DNA from: Deltaproteobacteria bacterium
Lineage (GTDB): Bacteria; JAUYMQ01
DNA length: 11,767 nucleotides
Direction of reading: 5' to 3'
NCBI GenBank assembly: GCA_030698575.1
Contig: JAUYMQ010000091.1
Coordinates: forward strand, 1 to 11,767
This document shows positions 1 through 9,545 of this stretch, piece by piece. The notes below the pieces were generated by a model, which saw only the letters and a list, made by a program, of their open reading frames with translations, did not search any database and was not told the origin of the DNA. Within the stretch, counting starts at the first letter, position 1; every line of letters begins with the position of its first letter. Made by a program: the position numbers and the translations under genes.

Positions 1-342
1 CTCGATCTCACCGGACTGGACGAGGTCGAGCAGCTCCAGCACGCCGCCGGCGGCGAGGAGGGCGATCTCGTAGCTCCGGTCTCTTGCTTAAGTGTCGGGA
101 TCGTTCTTGTTGTTTTTCAGCGTCGCGGTCTGCTTCTCGCTATCGAGCAGCTGCTCGCCGTGGTTGAGCAGGATCTCCTCGGGGATGGCGGCGCGAGGGG
201 GGATCCTGCGAGTGCGGCCAAGGAGGCCGGTCGCTTCCAGGCCAGCGTGCACGGCCTCGAGCCGATCGGGATTCTCCGGATGCGCGTGGGGCGGCCTGTG
301 TTCGAGATAGCGCGGGTCGAGGACGACCCCGGTTCCGGCCAT
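1..342 (-). pseudogene. Histone deacetylase / acetoin utilisation (AcuC-like) family gene, 5' part, interrupted by an in-frame stop
   Basis: The minus-strand reading frame begins at ATG 342-340, preceded by GGAGA seven bases upstream, and runs off the left edge. The N-terminus carries the class II HDAC/AcuC signature: YLEHRPPHAHPENPDRLEAV, then a segment ending in DPDT, then SYEIALLAAGGVLELLD. These enzymes are Zn-dependent deacetylases acting on acetylated lysine or small acetylated amines; the catalytic His pair and Zn ligands would lie beyond the window. Codon 85 from this ATG is TAA (bases 88-90), between DPDT and ARDRSYE, yet the frame is uninterrupted on both sides and the family pattern continues with its usual spacing. 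A single substitution (for example a Tyr codon to TAA) therefore explains it better than a frameshift. An upstream in-frame start near 381 exists, but the Shine-Dalgarno sequence favours 342. It could be a pseudogene or a sequence error. Family call is good; functional state is unknown. Confidence 0.66.
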
Positions 343-403
343 GAAACCATCTCCCTGCGCGGTCGGCCGCGCCGCCGCCAACCGGGGTGACGCGAACCCG
401 CCT

Positions 404-479: not shown

Positions 480-1556
480 ATGAATCACGGGGGAACTGAA
501 TTGAGCAAGGATGAACGGACCATCGTCGCCGAGCGCGTTGCCGCCCTGGAGAGTCGTGTGAACGGCCTCATGGAGGCTCGCCGCGCCCGCGTAACCGGCG
601 GGAAGCGCGGGGCGCGATCCTCGAGCGCGGGCTCCGCCGAGATCGAGGCGACCCGTGAGCGGCTTGCGAAGGAACTGGCCGGGCTGGCCGCGCGCCTCGA
701 GAAATTCGAGCGGGCCGATGAGGAGCGCGGCCGCAAATCCAAGGACGGCAGCGGGAGCCTGTCGAGTTTCCGCGAGGTCGTCCGGCAGGCCAGGCGGCTC
801 GGCGACGCCGAGGAGATTGACGATTTCGGCCTCGACCGCGGCTTCTTCGAAACGGTCCGGCCGCTCGTCGATCTGCTCTACGATCGTTACTTCCGCGTCG
901 AAGCCGAAGGCGCGAAAGCGAACGTGCCCGCCGAGGGGCCCGCGATTCTCGTGGCGAACCGCGGCGGCCCGGTGGCTTACGACGCGCTGATGATCGCCGA
1001 GGCTGCCAGGCGGGCCCATCCCGGCCGGCGGATTCGCTTCCATGTCGATCCGCACCTTGGCTCCGCGCCCGGCATAGGACCGATCATGGTGCGCCTCGGC
1101 GGCGTCAAGGAGGCCGGGGACAATGCCGAGCGCCTCGTCGAGGAAGGGCAGCTGTTTCTCTTCTTCCCGGAGGGGTTCCGGGGGGCCGTGAAGACGCTCG
1201 GCGAGCGCTATCGGCTCGCCGAGTTCTCGACGGAGTTCGCCGAAGCCGCCGAGCGCCTTGGGGTTCCGGTAATTCCGGTCGCGCTCATCGGGTCGGAAGA
1301 GGCGCAGCCGGTCATCGGGGGTATCACGTTCCTCGCCCGTGCGCTTGGCTGGCCCGCCTTTCCCCTGGCCCCGCTCGGCGTGCTCCCTCTGCCGGTGAAG
1401 TTCAGGATTCGCTTCGGCAAGCCCCTCACACCTTCGGGGGCACGCGGGCGCGCCCTCAAGACCCGTGCGAGGGCCCTTCGACAACGGACGCGCGATTCGG
1501 TTCAGGCGAGTCTCCGAGACCTCCTGGCCAGCCGACGATCCGTCTTTCTCGGCTAG
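480..1556 (+). CDS. PlsC-like lysophospholipid acyltransferase paralog lacking the catalytic His (probable pseudoenzyme)
   Basis: A 358-residue protein of the PlsC/LPLAT glycerolipid acyltransferase superfamily. Residues 10-85 are charged and likely helical or coiled coil; the acyltransferase domain spans about 125-315. Motif I, normally NHxxxxD, reads NRGGPVAYD: Asn160, Arg161 in place of the catalytic His, and Asp168. The acyl-acceptor motif FPEG is intact at 229-232, as is a VPVIPVALIG segment (262-271). It is clearly homologous to the two acyltransferases at 5110 and 6384, down to the closing RRSVFLG, but lacks their N-terminal LGxDPLxR peptide and their GRGG segment. His-to-Arg (CAC to CGC) is a single transition and, by family knowledge, should abolish His/Asp charge-relay catalysis. 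It may be a regulatory or structural partner of the active paralogs. ATG 480 has no Shine-Dalgarno sequence; TTG 501 (GGGGG seven bases upstream) would remove 7 residues and fits the promoter better. Family membership is secure; activity is doubtful. Confidence 0.85.
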   Translation: MNHGGTELSKDERTIVAERVAALESRVNGLMEARRARVTGGKRGARSSSAGSAEIEATRERLAKELAGLAARLEKFERADEERGRKSKDGSGSLSSFREVVRQARRLGDAEEIDDFGLDRGFFETVRPLVDLLYDRYFRVEAEGAKANVPAEGPAILVANRGGPVAYDALMIAEAARRAHPGRRIRFHVDPHLGSAPGIGPIMVRLGGVKEAGDNAERLVEEGQLFLFFPEGFRGAVKTLGERYRLAEFSTEFAEAAERLGVPVIPVALIGSEEAQPVIGGITFLARALGWPAFPLAPLGVLPLPVKFRIRFGKPLTPSGARGRALKTRARALRQRTRDSVQASLRDLLASRRSVFLG

Positions 1557-3282: not shown

Positions 3283-4314
3283 ATGGAGAAGGAGAGCAGC
3301 AAGGGCGGGCGCGCGAAGCGGAGGCGCGGCGCTGAAGCCCGCGAGGGCGGCGCCCTGGCCCTGACGGGCGCCTCGGGATTCATCGGGTCGCGCATTCTCG
3401 GCCGGCTCGTCGAAAGCGCGGACGATCGCCCCATCCTCGTGATCGACAATCAGAAGCCGCCGGTCGAGCACCGGCGCATACGCTTCTTTCGGGTCGACTT
3501 CACTGAGCCGACCGCCGACGCGACGCTGGCCGCCATCCTGAAGAAGGAAGGGTGCGACACGTTCATCCACACTTCCTACCTGTCGAACCCGACTCACGAC
3601 CAGGCCTACGCGCATGAGCTCGAGGCAATCGGCACCATGCACGTGCTGCACGCCGCCAGCGAAGCCGGGATCCGAAAGCTGATCGTCGCAGGCACGACGA
3701 TGTCCTACGGCGCGCTTCCGTCCAATCCGAATTTCCTGACCGAGGAGCACCCCCTGCGGGCGAACAGTCGTGTCGCCTCGCTGCGCGATCGCGTCGAGGC
3801 CGAGCAGGAAGTCGCGCGCTTCTCGCGGAAGAACCCGGACACCATCGTCACGGTCCTCCGGTGCTGCTGGATCATGGGACCGACGGTGAGCGGCTTTGTC
3901 ACCACCTTTTTCAGCCGCTCCGTGGTGCCGACGCTCCTCGGATATGATCCGCTGCTCCAGTTCATTCACGAGGAGGACGCGGTCGATGCCTACGAGCGCG
4001 CGGTGATCCACGATTTCCGGGGGGCCTACAACATCGTGGGACGCGGCGTTCTGCCGCTCAGCACGCTGCTCAAGCTCGCAGGCAAGCCATCGATTCCCAT
4101 CCTGCACTTCGCGGCCTATCCCTTTGCCGAAGCGCTCTGGATGAGCCAGCTCAGCGAGGCGCCGGGACCCTACCTGGATTACCTCCGGTATCTCTGGGTG
4201 GCCGACGGGGACAAGGCGCGCATCGAGATGGGATTCGAGCCGAAGTACTCAACGAAAGAAGCCTGGATGAGTTTCGTGGGGGGCCGGAGGCTGCGCAAGT
4301 ATCAGAACCGCTGA
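3283..4314 (+). CDS. Extended SDR / NAD-dependent epimerase-dehydratase family protein with non-canonical active site
   Basis: A 343-residue Rossmann-fold protein of the atypical/extended short-chain dehydrogenase family. A basic tail (residues 1-22, with AKRRR) precedes the dinucleotide-binding motif GASGFIG (29-35). The acidic residue after the second strand (ILVID, Asp55) favours NAD(H). The family FIHEEDAVDA motif is at 227-236. The usual catalytic YxxxK should fall just before VEAEQEV, but the sequence there is SLRDR (166-170): Tyr is replaced by Ser and Lys by Arg. The upstream GTTMSYG retains the Ser/Thr-like position. It may bind NAD without classical oxidoreductase chemistry, or use other residues. 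ATG 3283 has GGAG eight bases upstream. It is the first gene of a tight plus-strand operon with parA 40 bases downstream, suggesting a role in lipid or envelope metabolism together with the acyltransferases. Substrate unknown. Confidence 0.83.
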   Translation: MEKESSKGGRAKRRRGAEAREGGALALTGASGFIGSRILGRLVESADDRPILVIDNQKPPVEHRRIRFFRVDFTEPTADATLAAILKKEGCDTFIHTSYLSNPTHDQAYAHELEAIGTMHVLHAASEAGIRKLIVAGTTMSYGALPSNPNFLTEEHPLRANSRVASLRDRVEAEQEVARFSRKNPDTIVTVLRCCWIMGPTVSGFVTTFFSRSVVPTLLGYDPLLQFIHEEDAVDAYERAVIHDFRGAYNIVGRGVLPLSTLLKLAGKPSIPILHFAAYPFAEALWMSQLSEAPGPYLDYLRYLWVADGDKARIEMGFEPKYSTKEAWMSFVGGRRLRKYQNR

Positions 4315-4354
4315 CGGCATTGGGGGGTGCCGTGGCTGCGGTTCCAGGGAGCCC

Positions 4355-5128
4355 ATGGTGCGCCGGATCGCCTTCATCAACGAGAAGGGCGGGAGCTGCA
4401 AGACCACGCTCGCCGTGAACCTTGGCGCGTTCTACGCCCACTACCGGCGCAAGCGCGTCCTGATCGTCGACATGGATCCCCAGGGACAGGTCGGCAAAGC
4501 GCTCGGCTTCGAGGTAAAAAGCCTCGACCAGACGATCCTCGATCTGCTCGAAGATCCGGATCGGCCCGTCCAGGAATTCATCCGTTCGTCCCGGGTGTCC
4601 AGCCTCGACATCATTCCGGCCAACAAGCGGCTGGCGGAGTACGCCTCGACGGCGGGCTCCCTTCCCGATCACCCGCACCGCCTGGCCCGCGCGCTGCGCC
4701 AGCTCGAGGGGTACGACTACCTGCTCTTCGATTCACCCCCGTCCCTGGGCGTGAGCATCCTCAACATCATGCTCGCCACCGAGGAGATCGTCATACCGGT
4801 ATCGCTCACCTACTTCGCGCTGGACGGCTGCGCGGAGATTCTCGACACAGTGGGACGGGTGCGGGAGCGCTACGGGAACGAGGCGCTGCGGGTGAGCCTG
4901 GTGGTGCCCGCCCTCTACCGGCGGACCCGGCTGGCCGATGCTATTCTCGAACGGCTCCGGGAGCACTTCCCCGACAATCTCTCGCAGACCGTCGTGGGCT
5001 ATGACGTGAAGGTGGACGAGGCGCAGAGTCACGGGCAGACTATCTGGGAGTACGCACCCACGAGCCGGGGCGCGGAGTTGTTCGCGCGCCTGGCGATGGA
5101 GCTGGAACGTTGGCCGGCGGCCCGCTAG
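4355..5128 (+). CDS. ParA/Soj-family positioning ATPase (orphan, no ParB nearby)
   Basis: A 257-residue ParA/MinD-superfamily P-loop ATPase of the small chromosomal (Soj-like) type, without an N-terminal DNA-binding domain. The deviant Walker A is KGGSCKTT (11-18, including signature Lys11), Walker A' is VDMDPQG (38-44), and Walker B is LLFDSPPSLG (123-132). The C-terminal helix begins with the typical SRGAELFARL (238-247). Such ATPases dimerise on ATP and position cargo (DNA, protein clusters, carboxysomes) over the nucleoid or membrane, stimulated by a short N-terminal peptide of an adaptor. No parB or parS-like gene is visible; its neighbours are an SDR protein and two acyltransferases. 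The acyltransferase start (5110) overlaps its 3' end by 19 bases, indicating coupling. ATG 4355 lies only 3 bases from GGGAG; GTG 4358, one codon later, has better spacing and could be the real start. Family assignment is very secure; cargo is unknown. Confidence 0.93.
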   Translation: MVRRIAFINEKGGSCKTTLAVNLGAFYAHYRRKRVLIVDMDPQGQVGKALGFEVKSLDQTILDLLEDPDRPVQEFIRSSRVSSLDIIPANKRLAEYASTAGSLPDHPHRLARALRQLEGYDYLLFDSPPSLGVSILNIMLATEEIVIPVSLTYFALDGCAEILDTVGRVRERYGNEALRVSLVVPALYRRTRLADAILERLREHFPDNLSQTVVGYDVKVDEAQSHGQTIWEYAPTSRGAELFARLAMELERWPAAR

Positions 5129-6363
5129 GAAACGATCCCCTCTCACGTTTGAGCACACCGGGCGAGCCCGCCCGGCGGGAGGCCACCGTGCGTCTGCTTC
5201 CCCGGCGCGAGTCCCCTCCCGGCGGCGAATCAGCCATGGGGAAGACGCCCGCGGAGGCGGGATCGGGTCGCGGCGGCGGCCCCGATCTGGAGGCCCTTGA
5301 ACGGCGCTTGGCCGAGATCGAGCGGCGACTCGACGATGAGCTGGCCGGACTGCGCCGCGGGGCGGTGCGGAGATCGAATCCGCCCGCCGAGCGCGAAGAT
5401 ATCGTCGGCGCCATCCGCGATTTCGACGATCGCCTGGTTGAGATAGCGAACCGGACCTCGCACCTGGCGAGAGGACAGCGCCGCGGGCTGTTCCGTGGCG
5501 CCCGGAACGTGGCCAAGCTGGCGGGCGAGCTGGTCACGCCGGACTACTACTCGCGGAAGCTCGCCGAGTTCGGCCTTCGAGATCGCTCGGTTCGGGTGGA
5601 CGAATTCGGGATGGATCCCGCCTACCGGGCGAGCATCCGCCCCTTCATGGAATTTCTCTTCAGGCGGTGGTGGCGGGTGCGCATCGAGGGAATCTCGAAC
5701 ATCCCCGAGCGAGGCGCCGCACTCCTTGTGGGCAATCATGCGGGCGTGATTCCCTACGACGCCGCCATGGTCTCTTTCGGCGTCGAGATGCGGCATCCTG
5801 CCAGGCGTCGCGTCCGGTTCCTCATAGAAGACTGGTTTTCGACCCTCCCCTTCGCCAGCCCGCTCATCGCGCGCGCGGGAGCGGTGCGAGCCAACCGTGA
5901 GAACGCCGAGCGGCTCCTCCGGACGGGACATCTTGTCGGCGCCTTTCCCGAAGGGACGAAGGGCTCGCTCAAGTACTACAAGGATCGCTACAAGGTTCAG
6001 CGCTTCGGACGGGGAGGCTCGGTGCGGCTGGCAATGCGGACGGGGGTGCCCATTATTCCCTTCGCGGTGGTGGGCTCCGAGGAGATCTATCCGGTGCTCG
6101 CGAAGGCCAATCTGCTTGCGCGCGCCGTCGGGCTCGGAGAGCTGCCGATCGCGGCGAACACGCTGCTGGGCCCGCTGGGCCTCATTCCGCTCCCCTCGAA
6201 GTGGATCATCCGCATCGGCAAGCCGATTGATGTGGCTCGCCGCGGCGCCCGGGGAGCCGAGAACGATATCCTGGTGAACAAGATTGCCAATGAACTGAGA
6301 GAGAACGTGCAGGAGATGGTCGACGACCTTCTCACCAGGCGAAAGAGCGCCTGGCGCGGTTAA
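5110..6363 (+). CDS. PlsC-like lysophospholipid acyltransferase with coiled-coil N-terminal extension (first tandem copy)
   Basis: A 417-residue protein of the PlsC/LPLAT family, which acylates lysophospholipids or related glycerolipids at the membrane. Residues 1-60 are a linker, 58-120 charged helix or coiled coil, and 175-375 the catalytic domain. Motif I is NHAGVIPYD (His210, Asp217), the substrate-loop motif is FPEGTKG (279-285), and IPFAV (316-320) corresponds to motif IV. All key residues are present. The start is TTG 5110, inside the end of parA: GGAG lies eight bases upstream, and the resulting N-terminus (PLGNDPLSRL) matches that of the next paralog (VLGSDPLARM). The internal ATG (codon 43) would delete this shared peptide. 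The protein is much longer than a minimal PlsC (about 240 residues) because of the N-terminal extension. It ends in RRKSAWRG, like its paralogs. Acyl specificity cannot be read from sequence. Confidence 0.9.
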   Translation: MAGGPLGNDPLSRLSTPGEPARREATVRLLPRRESPPGGESAMGKTPAEAGSGRGGGPDLEALERRLAEIERRLDDELAGLRRGAVRRSNPPAEREDIVGAIRDFDDRLVEIANRTSHLARGQRRGLFRGARNVAKLAGELVTPDYYSRKLAEFGLRDRSVRVDEFGMDPAYRASIRPFMEFLFRRWWRVRIEGISNIPERGAALLVGNHAGVIPYDAAMVSFGVEMRHPARRRVRFLIEDWFSTLPFASPLIARAGAVRANRENAERLLRTGHLVGAFPEGTKGSLKYYKDRYKVQRFGRGGSVRLAMRTGVPIIPFAVVGSEEIYPVLAKANLLARAVGLGELPIAANTLLGPLGLIPLPSKWIIRIGKPIDVARRGARGAENDILVNKIANELRENVQEMVDDLLTRRKSAWRG

Positions 6364-6383
6364 CCTCGGGCAGGGACAAGGTT

Positions 6384-7613
6384 ATGGCCAAGTCGGTTCT
6401 GGGCTCCGATCCTCTGGCGCGCATGAAGGCGCGATCGCCGAAGCTCATCGATGAGGTGGCGGGGGAGCGCCCTGGAAATGAAGCGCCGGAAGCCGAGGGG
6501 CTGCCCGCGGAGATCTTCGAGCGCGCCGTCGACGATCGCATCGCGACCTTCGAGAGGCGCATCAAGGCCAAGCTCAACCGCTTCGATTCGGAGATCGAGG
6601 AGGAAATCGGCCAGGCGCGCAATCTCGATCCGACCCTCGAGCGCCGTCTCGGCGAAGCGCTCCATCGGATCGAAGGCCGCTTCCAGAAGCTCGGCTCGCT
6701 CGTCGGCGAGCTCGAGGAGGAAGAGCGCCAGGGGCTGCTGGAATCGATCATCGCCTTCGGCGACGCGTTCGAACGCGCCTTCCGGCTCGACACCTACCGC
6801 CACTACCTGAACAACTTCGGAATGCGCGACAGGAATTACGACGTCGACGAATTCGGCGTGGAGGTGGATGCGCACGCGTCGATCCAGCCCCTCGTGGAGT
6901 TCCTGTTCCACAAGTGGTGGCGCGTCGAGGTCGAAGGTATCGAGAACATCCCGGACGAGGGAGCCGCGCTGCTCGTGGCGAACCACGCGGGGGTGCTCCC
7001 CTATGACGGCGCGATGATCACTTACGCCGTGGAGCATCTGCATCCCGCGAGGCGGCGCGCGCGGTTCCTCGCCGAGGACTGGTCGGCCGAGATCCCATTC
7101 GCGACAAGCCTCGTCACCCGGCTGGGTGGGGTGCGCGGCAGCCGTGAGAACGCCGAGAGGATACTGCGCGCAGGCGAGCTGGTGACGGTATTCCCCGAGG
7201 GCGTGAAGGGGTCGGGGAAGTACTATCACGAGCGTTACCGGCTACAGCGGTTCGGGCGCGGCGGGTTCGTGCGGATGTGCCTCGAGACGGGCGCCGCCAT
7301 CATCCCCGTCGCCGTTCTGGGGGCAGAGGAGGCCCACCCCGTGCTCTACAAGGTGAACTGGCTCGCGAACCTACTTCGCGTTCCGTTCTTCCCCGTGAGC
7401 CCGACCTTCCCGTTGCTCGGGCCGCTGGGCCTGATCCCGCTCCCCGCGAAATGGACCATCGTATTCGGGGAGCCGATCACGCTCGAGAAGCACGGCCCGA
7501 CCGACGGGACAAACGATTTTCTGGTGAGCCAGCTGAAGGAGCGCGTCCGGAACGCCATCCAGCAGATGCTCAATGAGCGGCTCGCCGAGCGCCGGTCCAC
7601 CTGGCTCGGATGA
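6384..7613 (+). CDS. PlsC-like lysophospholipid acyltransferase with coiled-coil N-terminal extension (second tandem copy)
   Basis: A 409-residue paralog of the preceding gene, 20 bases downstream, in the same operon. Motif I is NHAGVLPYD (His201, Asp208), FPEGVKG is at 270-276, and YRLQRFGRGG (285-294) and AAIIPVAVLG (304-313) follow. Residues 40-130 are strongly charged and predicted helical or coiled coil (for example IEEEIGQ and ELEEEERQ). The N-terminal peptide SVLGSDPLARM (4-14) is shared with the first copy, and the protein ends in RRSTWLG. The start ATG 6384 is preceded by AGGGA at suitable distance. Long regions align without gaps to the first copy, indicating tandem duplication followed by divergence; the two may form a heteromer or differ in acyl donor or acceptor. 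No terminator with a U tract is evident after the TGA. Family is certain; precise reaction is not. Confidence 0.92.
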   Translation: MAKSVLGSDPLARMKARSPKLIDEVAGERPGNEAPEAEGLPAEIFERAVDDRIATFERRIKAKLNRFDSEIEEEIGQARNLDPTLERRLGEALHRIEGRFQKLGSLVGELEEEERQGLLESIIAFGDAFERAFRLDTYRHYLNNFGMRDRNYDVDEFGVEVDAHASIQPLVEFLFHKWWRVEVEGIENIPDEGAALLVANHAGVLPYDGAMITYAVEHLHPARRRARFLAEDWSAEIPFATSLVTRLGGVRGSRENAERILRAGELVTVFPEGVKGSGKYYHERYRLQRFGRGGFVRMCLETGAAIIPVAVLGAEEAHPVLYKVNWLANLLRVPFFPVSPTFPLLGPLGLIPLPAKWTIVFGEPITLEKHGPTDGTNDFLVSQLKERVRNAIQQMLNERLAERRSTWLG

Positions 7614-7632
7614 TCCCGCCGGCCGGTCTGCC

Positions 7633-7656
7633 AACCAGGAAGTGATACCTCTGGTT
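7633..7656 (+). repeat. Inverted repeat AACCAG / CTGGTT after the acyltransferase operon
   Basis: Perfect 6-bp arms are separated by 12 bases, 20 bases past the acyltransferase stop. There is no U tract, so it may be a weak terminator hairpin or a regulator-binding dyad upstream of the peroxidase promoter. Confidence 0.3.
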
Positions 7657-7743
7657 ACACGATCTGGGCAAAAAACTTCCCATTTCGTTTGTGAAGAACT
7701 TGCACTGGCCGCGATTCTGTTGATTTGGCGGGCCACCCCGGCG

Positions 7744-7759
7744 TGGCCTGAAAATTGCA
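7744..7759 (+). promoter_or_regulatory. Candidate sigma-54 (RpoN) -24/-12 promoter of the peroxidase gene
   Basis: TGGCCTG-AAAA-TTGCA matches the sigma-54 consensus TGGCACG-N4-TTGCW at the invariant GG (-24) and GC (-12) with the required 10 bases between them. Transcription would begin near 7770, about 100 bases before ATG 7872. An inverted repeat (7731-7736 / 7743-7748) overlaps the -24 element. If correct, expression needs a bacterial enhancer-binding protein. Confidence 0.6.
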
Positions 7760-7871
7760 CTGTTTAGCTTGGCTTCGTCTGTCGTGAGGGGAAGTCGGCC
7801 ATCGAGAGGGGCCGTTTCACCGGCTGGTGGGTCCGGCCGCCAGGGCGCCGGGGGGCGATCAGGGAGCTTCC

Positions 7872-9545
7872 ATGTTGGATGCGTTTCAGATCCGGGTCCG
7901 TTTTCGGAAAGCCGGTCGTCTGCTGGTTGCCTCGGCGGGATTCATTTTCGCCGCCGCTCTCGTCACGCCCGCCCCGGCGGCGGCGGAGACCGAATTCCGC
8001 GCAATCGACGGGACGGGCAACAATCTGTCGAACTCCGCCTGGGGCTCCGCCGGCGACCAGCTGCTTCGGACGACCACGGTCGACTACGGTGACGGCGTAT
8101 GGACGCCGGCCGGCGCAGATAGGCCGAGCGCCCGCGAGATCAGCAACCTCGTCTGCGCCCAGGGCTCGCTCCTGCCCATCTCCGTTCCCGTGACGAGCTT
8201 CGTCTGGCAGTGGGGGCAGTTCCTCGATCACGACATCGACCTCACCGCGGGCGGCGCCCCGGCGGAACCCTTCGACATACCCGTGCCCCTGGGTGACCCC
8301 TACTTCGATCCCTTCGGGACCGGAACGCAGGTGATCGCGGTCGACCGCTCCGTCTACGATCCGGCTACGGGAACCGCCTCCGGCAACCCGCGGCAGCAGA
8401 TGAACCTGATCACGGCTTACATCGACGCGTCCAACGTCTACGGTTCCGATTCCGTTCGCGCCGCGGCGCTCAGAACGAACGACGGCACGGGGCGCCTGAA
8501 GACGAGCGCCGGTGATCTGCTCCCCTTCAACACCGGCGGTCTTCCCAACGCGGGCGGGACGAGCCCGAGCCTCTTCCTGGCCGGCGACGTGCGGGCGAAC
8601 GAGCAGGTGGGCCTCACGGCGCTGCACACGCTCTTCGTACGCGAGCACAACCGCGTCGCCGCGAGGATCCATCACCACGAGCCCGAGCTGTCTGACGACG
8701 AGATTTACGAACGGGCGCGGCGCATCGTGAGCGCCGAGATGCAGGTGATCACCTACAAGGAGTTCCTGCCGTACCTGCTGGGCCCCGGCGCGCTGGCCCC
8801 CTACACCGGCTACGATCCAGACGTCGATCCCGGGATCGGCAACATCTTCTCGACCGCTTCCTATCGCTTCGGCCACAGCATGCTTCCCGACGAGCTTCTC
8901 CGGCTCGACCAGAAGGGGGTGGACATCCCCCAGGGCAATCTGCCTCTCCGGAACGCCTTCTTCGCGCCCGGCGTGATCGTGAACGAAGGAGGGATCGATC
9001 CCCTTCTACGCGGGCTCGCCGCGCAGCGGCCACAGGAAGTCGACGCGATGCTCGTAGATGACATCCGGAACTTCCTCTTCGGGCCGCCCGGATCCGGCGG
9101 CTTCGACCTGGCCTCCCTCAATCTTCAGCGCGGCCGGGATCACGGGCTCCCGGGCTACAACCAGACCCGTGCCGACATGGGCCTGGCTCCGGCCGCCACC
9201 TTCGCGGACATCACTTCCGACCCGGCGCTCCAGGCGGCACTCCAGCAGGCCTACGGGACGGTGGATCAGGTGGAGGCCTGGGTGGGCGGGCTTTCCGAGG
9301 ATCACCTGCCCGGTGCGCTCGTCGGCGAGCTGGTCTTCACCGTGCTCAGGGAGCAGTTCGAAAGGCTGCGCGACGGGGATCGGTTCTGGTACGAGAATTC
9401 CTTCTCGAAGTCCGAGATCTCCCGGCTCGAGAAGACGCGGCTCTCGGACATCATCCGTCGCAACACCGGGATCGGGGGGGAGATCCAGAAGGACGTCTTC
9501 GTCCTGCGCGGCCAACATCTCCATCATCACGATCACGGCCACTGA
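7872..9545 (+). CDS. Secreted animal-type haem peroxidase (An_peroxidase family) with His-rich C-terminus
   Basis: A 557-residue exported haem peroxidase of the peroxidase-cyclooxygenase superfamily, related to myeloperoxidase and peroxinectin; it uses H2O2 to oxidise halides, phenols or tyrosine. The signal peptide runs to about residue 38 (basic RVRFRKAGR, hydrophobic core, APAAA then ETEF). The distal side is WQWGQFLDHDIDLT (112-125) with distal His120, Asp119 at the haem-ester position and Asp121 at the Ca position. LFVREHNRVA (254-263) supplies the conserved Arg and Glu. The proximal His335 is in YRFGHSML, and LNLQRGRDHGLPGYN (416-430) holds the Asn partner and family signature. Only one Cys (95) remains, so the disulfides of animal enzymes are absent. 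The last nine residues contain six His. ATG 7872 has GGGAG five bases upstream; the in-frame GTG 7827 would place residues before the signal peptide and is less likely. All haem-site residues look intact, so it should be active. Confidence 0.94.
   Translation: MLDAFQIRVRFRKAGRLLVASAGFIFAAALVTPAPAAAETEFRAIDGTGNNLSNSAWGSAGDQLLRTTTVDYGDGVWTPAGADRPSAREISNLVCAQGSLLPISVPVTSFVWQWGQFLDHDIDLTAGGAPAEPFDIPVPLGDPYFDPFGTGTQVIAVDRSVYDPATGTASGNPRQQMNLITAYIDASNVYGSDSVRAAALRTNDGTGRLKTSAGDLLPFNTGGLPNAGGTSPSLFLAGDVRANEQVGLTALHTLFVREHNRVAARIHHHEPELSDDEIYERARRIVSAEMQVITYKEFLPYLLGPGALAPYTGYDPDVDPGIGNIFSTASYRFGHSMLPDELLRLDQKGVDIPQGNLPLRNAFFAPGVIVNEGGIDPLLRGLAAQRPQEVDAMLVDDIRNFLFGPPGSGGFDLASLNLQRGRDHGLPGYNQTRADMGLAPAATFADITSDPALQAALQQAYGTVDQVEAWVGGLSEDHLPGALVGELVFTVLREQFERLRDGDRFWYENSFSKSEISRLEKTRLSDIIRRNTGIGGEIQKDVFVLRGQHLHHHDHGH

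Follow-up and report, generated by a model that had tools for sequence, protein, structure and literature searches.

What does a ParA-type ATPase position when it is encoded among lipid enzymes, with no ParB beside it? This question is raised by the window analysed here, the whole 11,767-nt contig JAUYMQ010000091.1 of a Deltaproteobacteria bacterium (assembly GCA_030698575.1), in which four plus-strand open reading frames (ORFs) form a tight operon encoding an SDR-like protein, an orphan ParA and two PlsC-like acyltransferases, PlsC1 and PlsC2 (Table 1). The cargos of ParA/MinD ATPases so far include DNA, carboxysomes, chemotaxis arrays, flagella and division proteins. A first-pass annotation, made from the sequence, had described the four-gene operon and proposed the acyltransferases as the cargo or adaptor of ParA. 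Upon re-checking, all four ORFs were recovered, each with a profile match of its own, separated in order by 40, -19 and 20 nt. The 19-nt overlap between parA and plsC1, also described in that annotation, is probably real, given that the TTG at 5110 is the sole in-frame start that retains the LGNDPL motif of PlsC1. A scan for promoters and terminators gave signals no higher than those in shuffled sequence. The acyltransferase as ParA's cargo or adaptor is the leading reading, because the gene order is conserved and because an N-terminal motif goes along with ParA linkage and is found again on a CheW protein.

Conserved linkage of ParA and acyltransferase genes

A scan of GTDB gave 80 loci and whole-genome searches added others; in all, 90 loci of the ParA family were mapped. 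Many are from metagenome-assembled genomes (MAGs), and gene calls in relatives come from a basic ORF finder and hidden Markov models built in this analysis rather than from a standard annotator. PlsC lies directly 3′ of parA in 24 of the 90 loci, and SDR is present in 23 of those 24, as SDR-ParA-PlsC in 5 and as ParA-PlsC-SDR in 18. The former arrangement, preceded in some loci by a phasin-like gene and followed in some by an opposing PhaR-type gene, occurs in the window and in genomes G035, G044, G065 and G049; G035, G044 and G049 represent three different phyla, while G065 belongs to that of G044. The latter (class 2) reads EtfB-EtfA-ParA-PlsC-SDR-EFP-patatin, with the flanking genes not all in every locus, and is found in 18 loci and in L097, mostly from uncultured Myxococcota-like MAGs. 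On a tree of 56 ParAs, PlsC linkage requires at least three changes. ParA-PlsC linkage is conserved across deeply separated lineages. The exact SDR-ParA-PlsC-PlsC order, whose conservation the first-pass annotation had singled out as a check, was nevertheless found in the window only; the conserved unit has one PlsC rather than a tandem pair.

The window ParA has the deviant Walker A, A′ and B motifs of the ParA/MinD (Walker A cytoskeletal ATPase) family. Aligned to Soj (1wcv, 6iub), which is also its closest PDB match, all three are intact: NEKGGSCKTT with the signature lysine, DMDPQG and LLFDSPPSLG, with a Gly to Cys change within the GKT of Walker A. In the ParA tree, the window family (46 rows) forms a fully supported clade, with the chromosomal ParAs outside it, including the organism's own, to which the core of the window ParA is about 37% identical. 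The genome's parAB lies away from the operon, on contig C345. A ParB_N profile search of the genome gave three matches, on C345 (beside its own ParA), C368 and C116, with none on C415, and found no cognate parB adjoining the window parA. A role in chromosome partition was rejected on the grounds of this separate parAB and the different clade. An origin from plasmid or phage is unsupported: with the CheW-linked ParA of locus L071 (see below), in place of the window ParA, as query, 72,556 plasmids gave no match above 39% identity and viral contigs gave no relative. The genome encodes a second ParA of the window family (L154:3089-4114, G000:C457), 48% identical and beside a molybdopterin oxidoreductase gene; its short contig carries no PlsC or SDR.

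The SDR-like protein retains the glycine-rich NAD motif TGASGFIG. The YxxxK dyad of catalytic extended SDRs is absent from it and unconserved in its relatives, so that dehydrogenation is a less likely function of this family than a structural or NAD-sensing one. Given that PlsC and SDR are paired without ParA in three genomes (G014, G020 and G024), PlsC-SDR looks like the core pair, joined by ParA.

The acyltransferases and their N-terminal motif

Both acyltransferases carry the catalytic motifs of the LPLAT/PlsC family, NHAGVIPYD in PlsC1, NHAGVLPYD in PlsC2 and FPEG in both. The AlphaFold2 model of PlsC2 has a confident LPLAT domain that best matches Thermotoga maritima PlsC (5kym, Z 17.8), which shares the FPEG motif; GPATs are also close. 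Unlike PlsC/LPLAT enzymes, the window proteins have HX6D spacing (NHxGxxPxD) instead of HX4D, DAGAT (DGAT2-type) matches that exceed the cut-off weakly, and an N-terminal extension of about 150 residues. The coiled coils that the first-pass annotation had placed in these extensions find moderate support: in the PlsC2 model residues 1-41 are disordered, and residues 42-146 form helices at low to medium confidence (pLDDT, the predicted local distance difference test, ~50-72). The two acyltransferase ORFs lie where that annotation placed them, but a third, degenerate PlsC-like gene went uncounted. In this paralogue, at 480-1556, Arg replaces the catalytic His (NR for NH); it lies upstream of an ArnT-like glycosyltransferase and is probably an enzymatically inactive, non-catalytic member of the family.

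PlsC1 begins LAGGPLGNDPLSRL and PlsC2 begins MAKSVLGSDPLARM, and both contain the motif LGxDP[FL]. The same motif is N-terminal in 18 of the 19 class-2 ParA-adjacent PlsCs, with LVRDPF in the 19th. Within class 2 its six columns have identities of 1.0/0.89/0.35/1/1/1, whereas most columns on either side stand at ~0.1. Four class-2 loci have second PlsCs un-linked to ParA, and these have a short extension or none and no motif. In a tree of PlsC cores, the window-type and class-2 PlsCs are separated by motif-less clades, and the motif needs at least two changes.

An unrelated protein carries it as well. In L071, a CheW (7318-8157; 9.8e-38) directly after a ParA of the same type has a 130-residue N-terminal extension that starts MSQQDILGRDPL and contains LGxDP[FL]; in L076 (3624-3938), a truncated ORF, MVNKPGGQNPLGTDPL, follows CheA-ParA with the motif at its N-terminus. 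A chemotaxis ParA that is 36% identical (L106) has no LGxDP-bearing neighbour. The loci retrieved contain 1227 called ORFs, and of these only PlsCs and the L071 CheW have the motif within the first 80 residues. Similarly, in 800 kb of the Myxococcus-like genome G028, the sole N-terminal carrier is its LGNDPF-type PlsC, both among 578 called ORFs and among every six-frame ORF of at least 100 aa. These counts describe the motif rather than test it, since the regular expression was chosen after the data had been seen. Chance was considered and judged unlikely, given the column conservation and the two background counts; an LLGYDPL inside the SDR family was set aside as a separate coincidental match.

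The N-terminus of the genome's own ParB, MAERQALGRGLSALI, has a loose likeness to that of PlsC2. The N-terminal peptides by which ParB-type partners act on ParA/MinD ATPases are short and mostly basic (PMC7993993). The likeness remains a lead, because about half of the class-2 motifs lack basic residues ahead of LG. As a tentative proposal, possible although we hold it to be on the doubtful side, an N-terminal LGxDP[FL] would be a transferable tag by which proteins dock on one ParA family. The same kind of ATPase would then distribute cargos as unrelated as lipid acyltransferases in some bacteria and CheW/CheA arrays in others, allowing energy-driven placing of lipid synthesis or lipid-storage granules.

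Other N-termini were seen among the PlsCs. In the SDR-PlsC pairs of G024 (L160), G014 (L161) and G020 (L159), whose genomes yielded no ParA other than the chromosomal type, the PlsCs have Lys/Arg-rich, histone-H1-like tails instead of LGxDP, and the PlsC of G028 has motif and tail together. Such tails are possibly a direct DNA tether in place of ParA docking.

Table 1. Features of the window, with the profile, structural or motif evidence for each.
Feature	Position	Strand	Evidence
SDR-like protein (extended SDR/epimerase fold)	3283..4314	+	Pfam Epimerase 3.6e-21; active-site family comparison
Orphan ParA ATPase, separate ParA family	4355..5128	+	AAA_31 8e-40; PDB Soj 1wcv 2e-40; clade support 100/100
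PlsC1, lysophospholipid/acylglycerol acyltransferase-like, N-terminal extension, TTG start inside parA	5110..6363	+	Pfam Acyltransferase 5e-18; DAGAT 24.7 bits (cut-off 22)
LGNDPL motif (PlsC1 residues 6-11), a candidate peptide for docking on ParA that overlaps the parA 3′ end	5125..5142	+	Motif comparison
PlsC2, disordered N-terminus, helical middle, LPLAT domain	6384..7613	+	Pfam Acyltransferase 3.8e-18; DAGAT 30.8 bits (cut-off 22); AlphaFold2
LGSDPL motif of PlsC2, residues 6-11, context MAKSVLGSDPLARM	6399..6416	+	Motif comparison
Third PlsC-like paralogue, ANRGGPVAYD, without LGxDP	480..1556	+	Pfam Acyltransferase 1.1e-12; motif check
Contig end dovetailing with contig C610	11510..11767	.	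98% over 258 nt

Phasin-like and PhaR-type neighbours and competing explanations

The first-pass annotation had reported no ParB or adaptor. None is present inside the window, but the same is not true of the locus, because contig C610, which dovetails with the window end, begins with a phasin-like gene and a PhaR-type gene (PHB_acc_N 6e-26), followed by three ArsA-type ATPase and zinc-ribbon genes. This is the gene set that surrounds ParA in Myxococcus. We infer the join from the overlap by itself; it would put the phasin-like and PhaR-type genes about 5 kb past the operon. The other end of the window (1-368) likewise dovetails with a contig of the assembly, C367 (95%), and since both ends do so, strain variation is suggested to have split the assembly here.

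Phasin-like and PhaR-type genes recur in many loci of the ParA family. In a third arrangement, two ArsA genes in the opposite orientation are followed by a phasin-like gene, parA and a convergent PhaR-type gene; about 45 loci of Myxococcota, that of Myxococcus xanthus among them, are built in this way, and PlsC is not adjacent in them. Overall, a phasin-like gene lies directly 5′ of parA in 53 of the 90 loci, none of which has a neighbouring PlsC, and before SDR-parA-PlsC in 3 further loci; a PhaR-type gene is convergent with parA in 53. PF05597 was matched at E≤0.01 by 19 of 22 aligned phasin-like members (best 9.7e-10), a homology that we rate as moderate because the single-protein matches fall under the curated cut-off. 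The PhaR-type genes match PHB_acc_N at ~1e-26. The phasin-like proteins of G035, G044 and G049 have C-terminal tails rich in Lys/Ala/Pro or Lys/Ser/Thr. In Myxococcota, the phasin-like, ParA and PhaR genes have two or three ArsA/Get3-type ATPase genes as conserved neighbours (L035:2705-4776, L181:2341-5749).

How might such a cassette work? We see about an even chance that it serves to position cargo inside the cell in the manner of ParA/McdA-type modules; that cargo would be a lipid-synthesising complex or a lipid or polymer granule. In its ATP-bound form, ParA would dimerise and associate non-specifically with the nucleoid, as its intact Soj-type motifs suggest. The PlsCs would be located at the membrane or at the surface of a granule, with their disordered N-terminal LGxDP[FL] peptide exposed. 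This peptide would dock on ParA and perhaps stimulate its ATPase, in the way of N-terminal peptides of the ParB type. The cargo may be coated or linked by phasin-like and PhaR-type coiled-coil proteins, which in some lineages may also tether it to DNA via histone-like tails. As a result, sites of lipid synthesis or storage would be evenly spaced or inherited. The PlsC N-terminus and the phasin-like and PhaR-type proteins are both candidate adaptors.

Several observations weigh against this reading. Most Myxococcota loci of the ParA family have no adjoining PlsC. The ParA-adjacent PlsCs of G035, G044, G049 and G065 are without the motif, although G044 and G049 each have another PlsC with it, and motif-bearing PlsCs stand apart from parA on the genome's own contig C590 and in G028. 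The CheW case consists of two loci, and the ParB likeness is loose, as said above. In addition, no PhaC_N match was found in the organism's own genome (G000, 92% complete, so that a gap is possible) or in G028, and the genes thus do not make up a polyhydroxyalkanoate (PHA) biosynthesis locus. An ordinary PHA granule was rejected for this reason, and any granule would be of another kind.

The first-pass annotation had held that a dedicated adaptor elsewhere would count against its proposal, and the phasin-like and PhaR-type genes are in part such a finding. They may be the true partners of a ParA that positions a storage granule, with the acyltransferases as co-operonic enzymes of the granule or membrane that do not contact ParA. 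We regard this as unlikely, though it draws on the phasin-like and PhaR-type counts above and on the phylum mates of G035, which keep phasin-like and ParA and lack PlsC and SDR. The class-2 loci, however, retain PlsC-SDR with no phasin-like gene beside ParA, and phasin partners leave the conserved LGxDP[FL] of the PlsCs and of the ParA-adjacent CheW unexplained. The linkage could also be incidental, with ParA regulating lipid enzymes or their expression and positioning nothing. Metabolic genes on both flanks and the class-2 neighbours EtfA/B, EF-P and patatin are consistent with this idea; yet the linkage is retained over deep lineages in differing gene orders, the signature lysine and Soj-type motifs are kept, and the same ParA family is linked to CheA/CheW, all of which makes it improbable.

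LGxDP[FL] might instead be a generic localisation tag recognised by a protein other than ParA, for example a hub at the pole or the nucleoid, or the SDR-like protein; parA and plsC would then be in one operon because their products both work for this hub. Motif-bearing PlsCs away from parA (C590, G028, contig C172 of G044 and contig C226 of G049) are in keeping with such a tag, as is the pairing of SDR with PlsC where ParA is absent. Nevertheless, the four PlsCs examined in G014, G020 and G024 have no motif, and it recurs on a CheW directly after parA, which renders a generic tag distinctly improbable. For the acyltransferase as cargo or adaptor, the N-terminal motif and its recurrence on CheW stand in favour, and its absence from four of the ParA-adjacent PlsCs stands against.

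Directly 3′ of PlsC2, the window encodes an animal-type haem peroxidase (7827-9545; Pfam 5e-160), followed by a PAN-domain protein. No such peroxidase was seen with the cassette in other loci.

Relation to described systems and significance

As in McdA/McdB, PpfA, ParC and PomZ (PMC10241942, PMC13052382), an orphan ParA-type ATPase is encoded here with a putative protein cargo, and nucleoid binding is expected. The partners in McdA/McdB-type systems act by short N-terminal segments; here, linkage and an N-terminal motif were found. Unlike those systems, the putative cargo genes encode a lipid acyltransferase and an SDR-like protein, with phasin-like and PhaR-type neighbours and no carboxysome or flagellar genes. 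Compared with Soj-Spo0J, the window ParA belongs to a separate clade and has no ParB alongside. The survey text on ParA/MinD ATPases makes no mention of lipid or acyltransferase cargo (PMC10241942), and among open-licence papers we found no described system in which lipid droplets, phasins or acyltransferases are connected to a ParA.

Polyhydroxybutyrate granules are positioned by the phasins PhaM, PhaF and PhaH, which anchor them to the nucleoid and have no ParA homology, and whether energy is needed is still to be seen (2025 review, PMC13052382). Like these, the loci described here have phasin-like proteins beside PhaR-type regulators, some with histone-like Lys-rich C-terminal tails that resemble the DNA-binding tails of PhaF and AlgP (general knowledge and PMC13052382). 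Unlike in those systems, parA adjoins them and PhaC was not found in the genome.

Taken together, the recurrence of the ParA-acyltransferase set in deeply separated groups with phasin-like and PhaR genes suggests a possible, undescribed way of placing lipid synthesis or storage granules in the cell. The short N-terminal motif would provide a precise, mutable handle, which could be used to find more cargos. Because this ParA family travels with acyltransferase and phasin/PhaR genes in separate lineages, with phasin/PhaR in Myxococcus xanthus among others, whether granule positioning can be energy-driven becomes directly testable.

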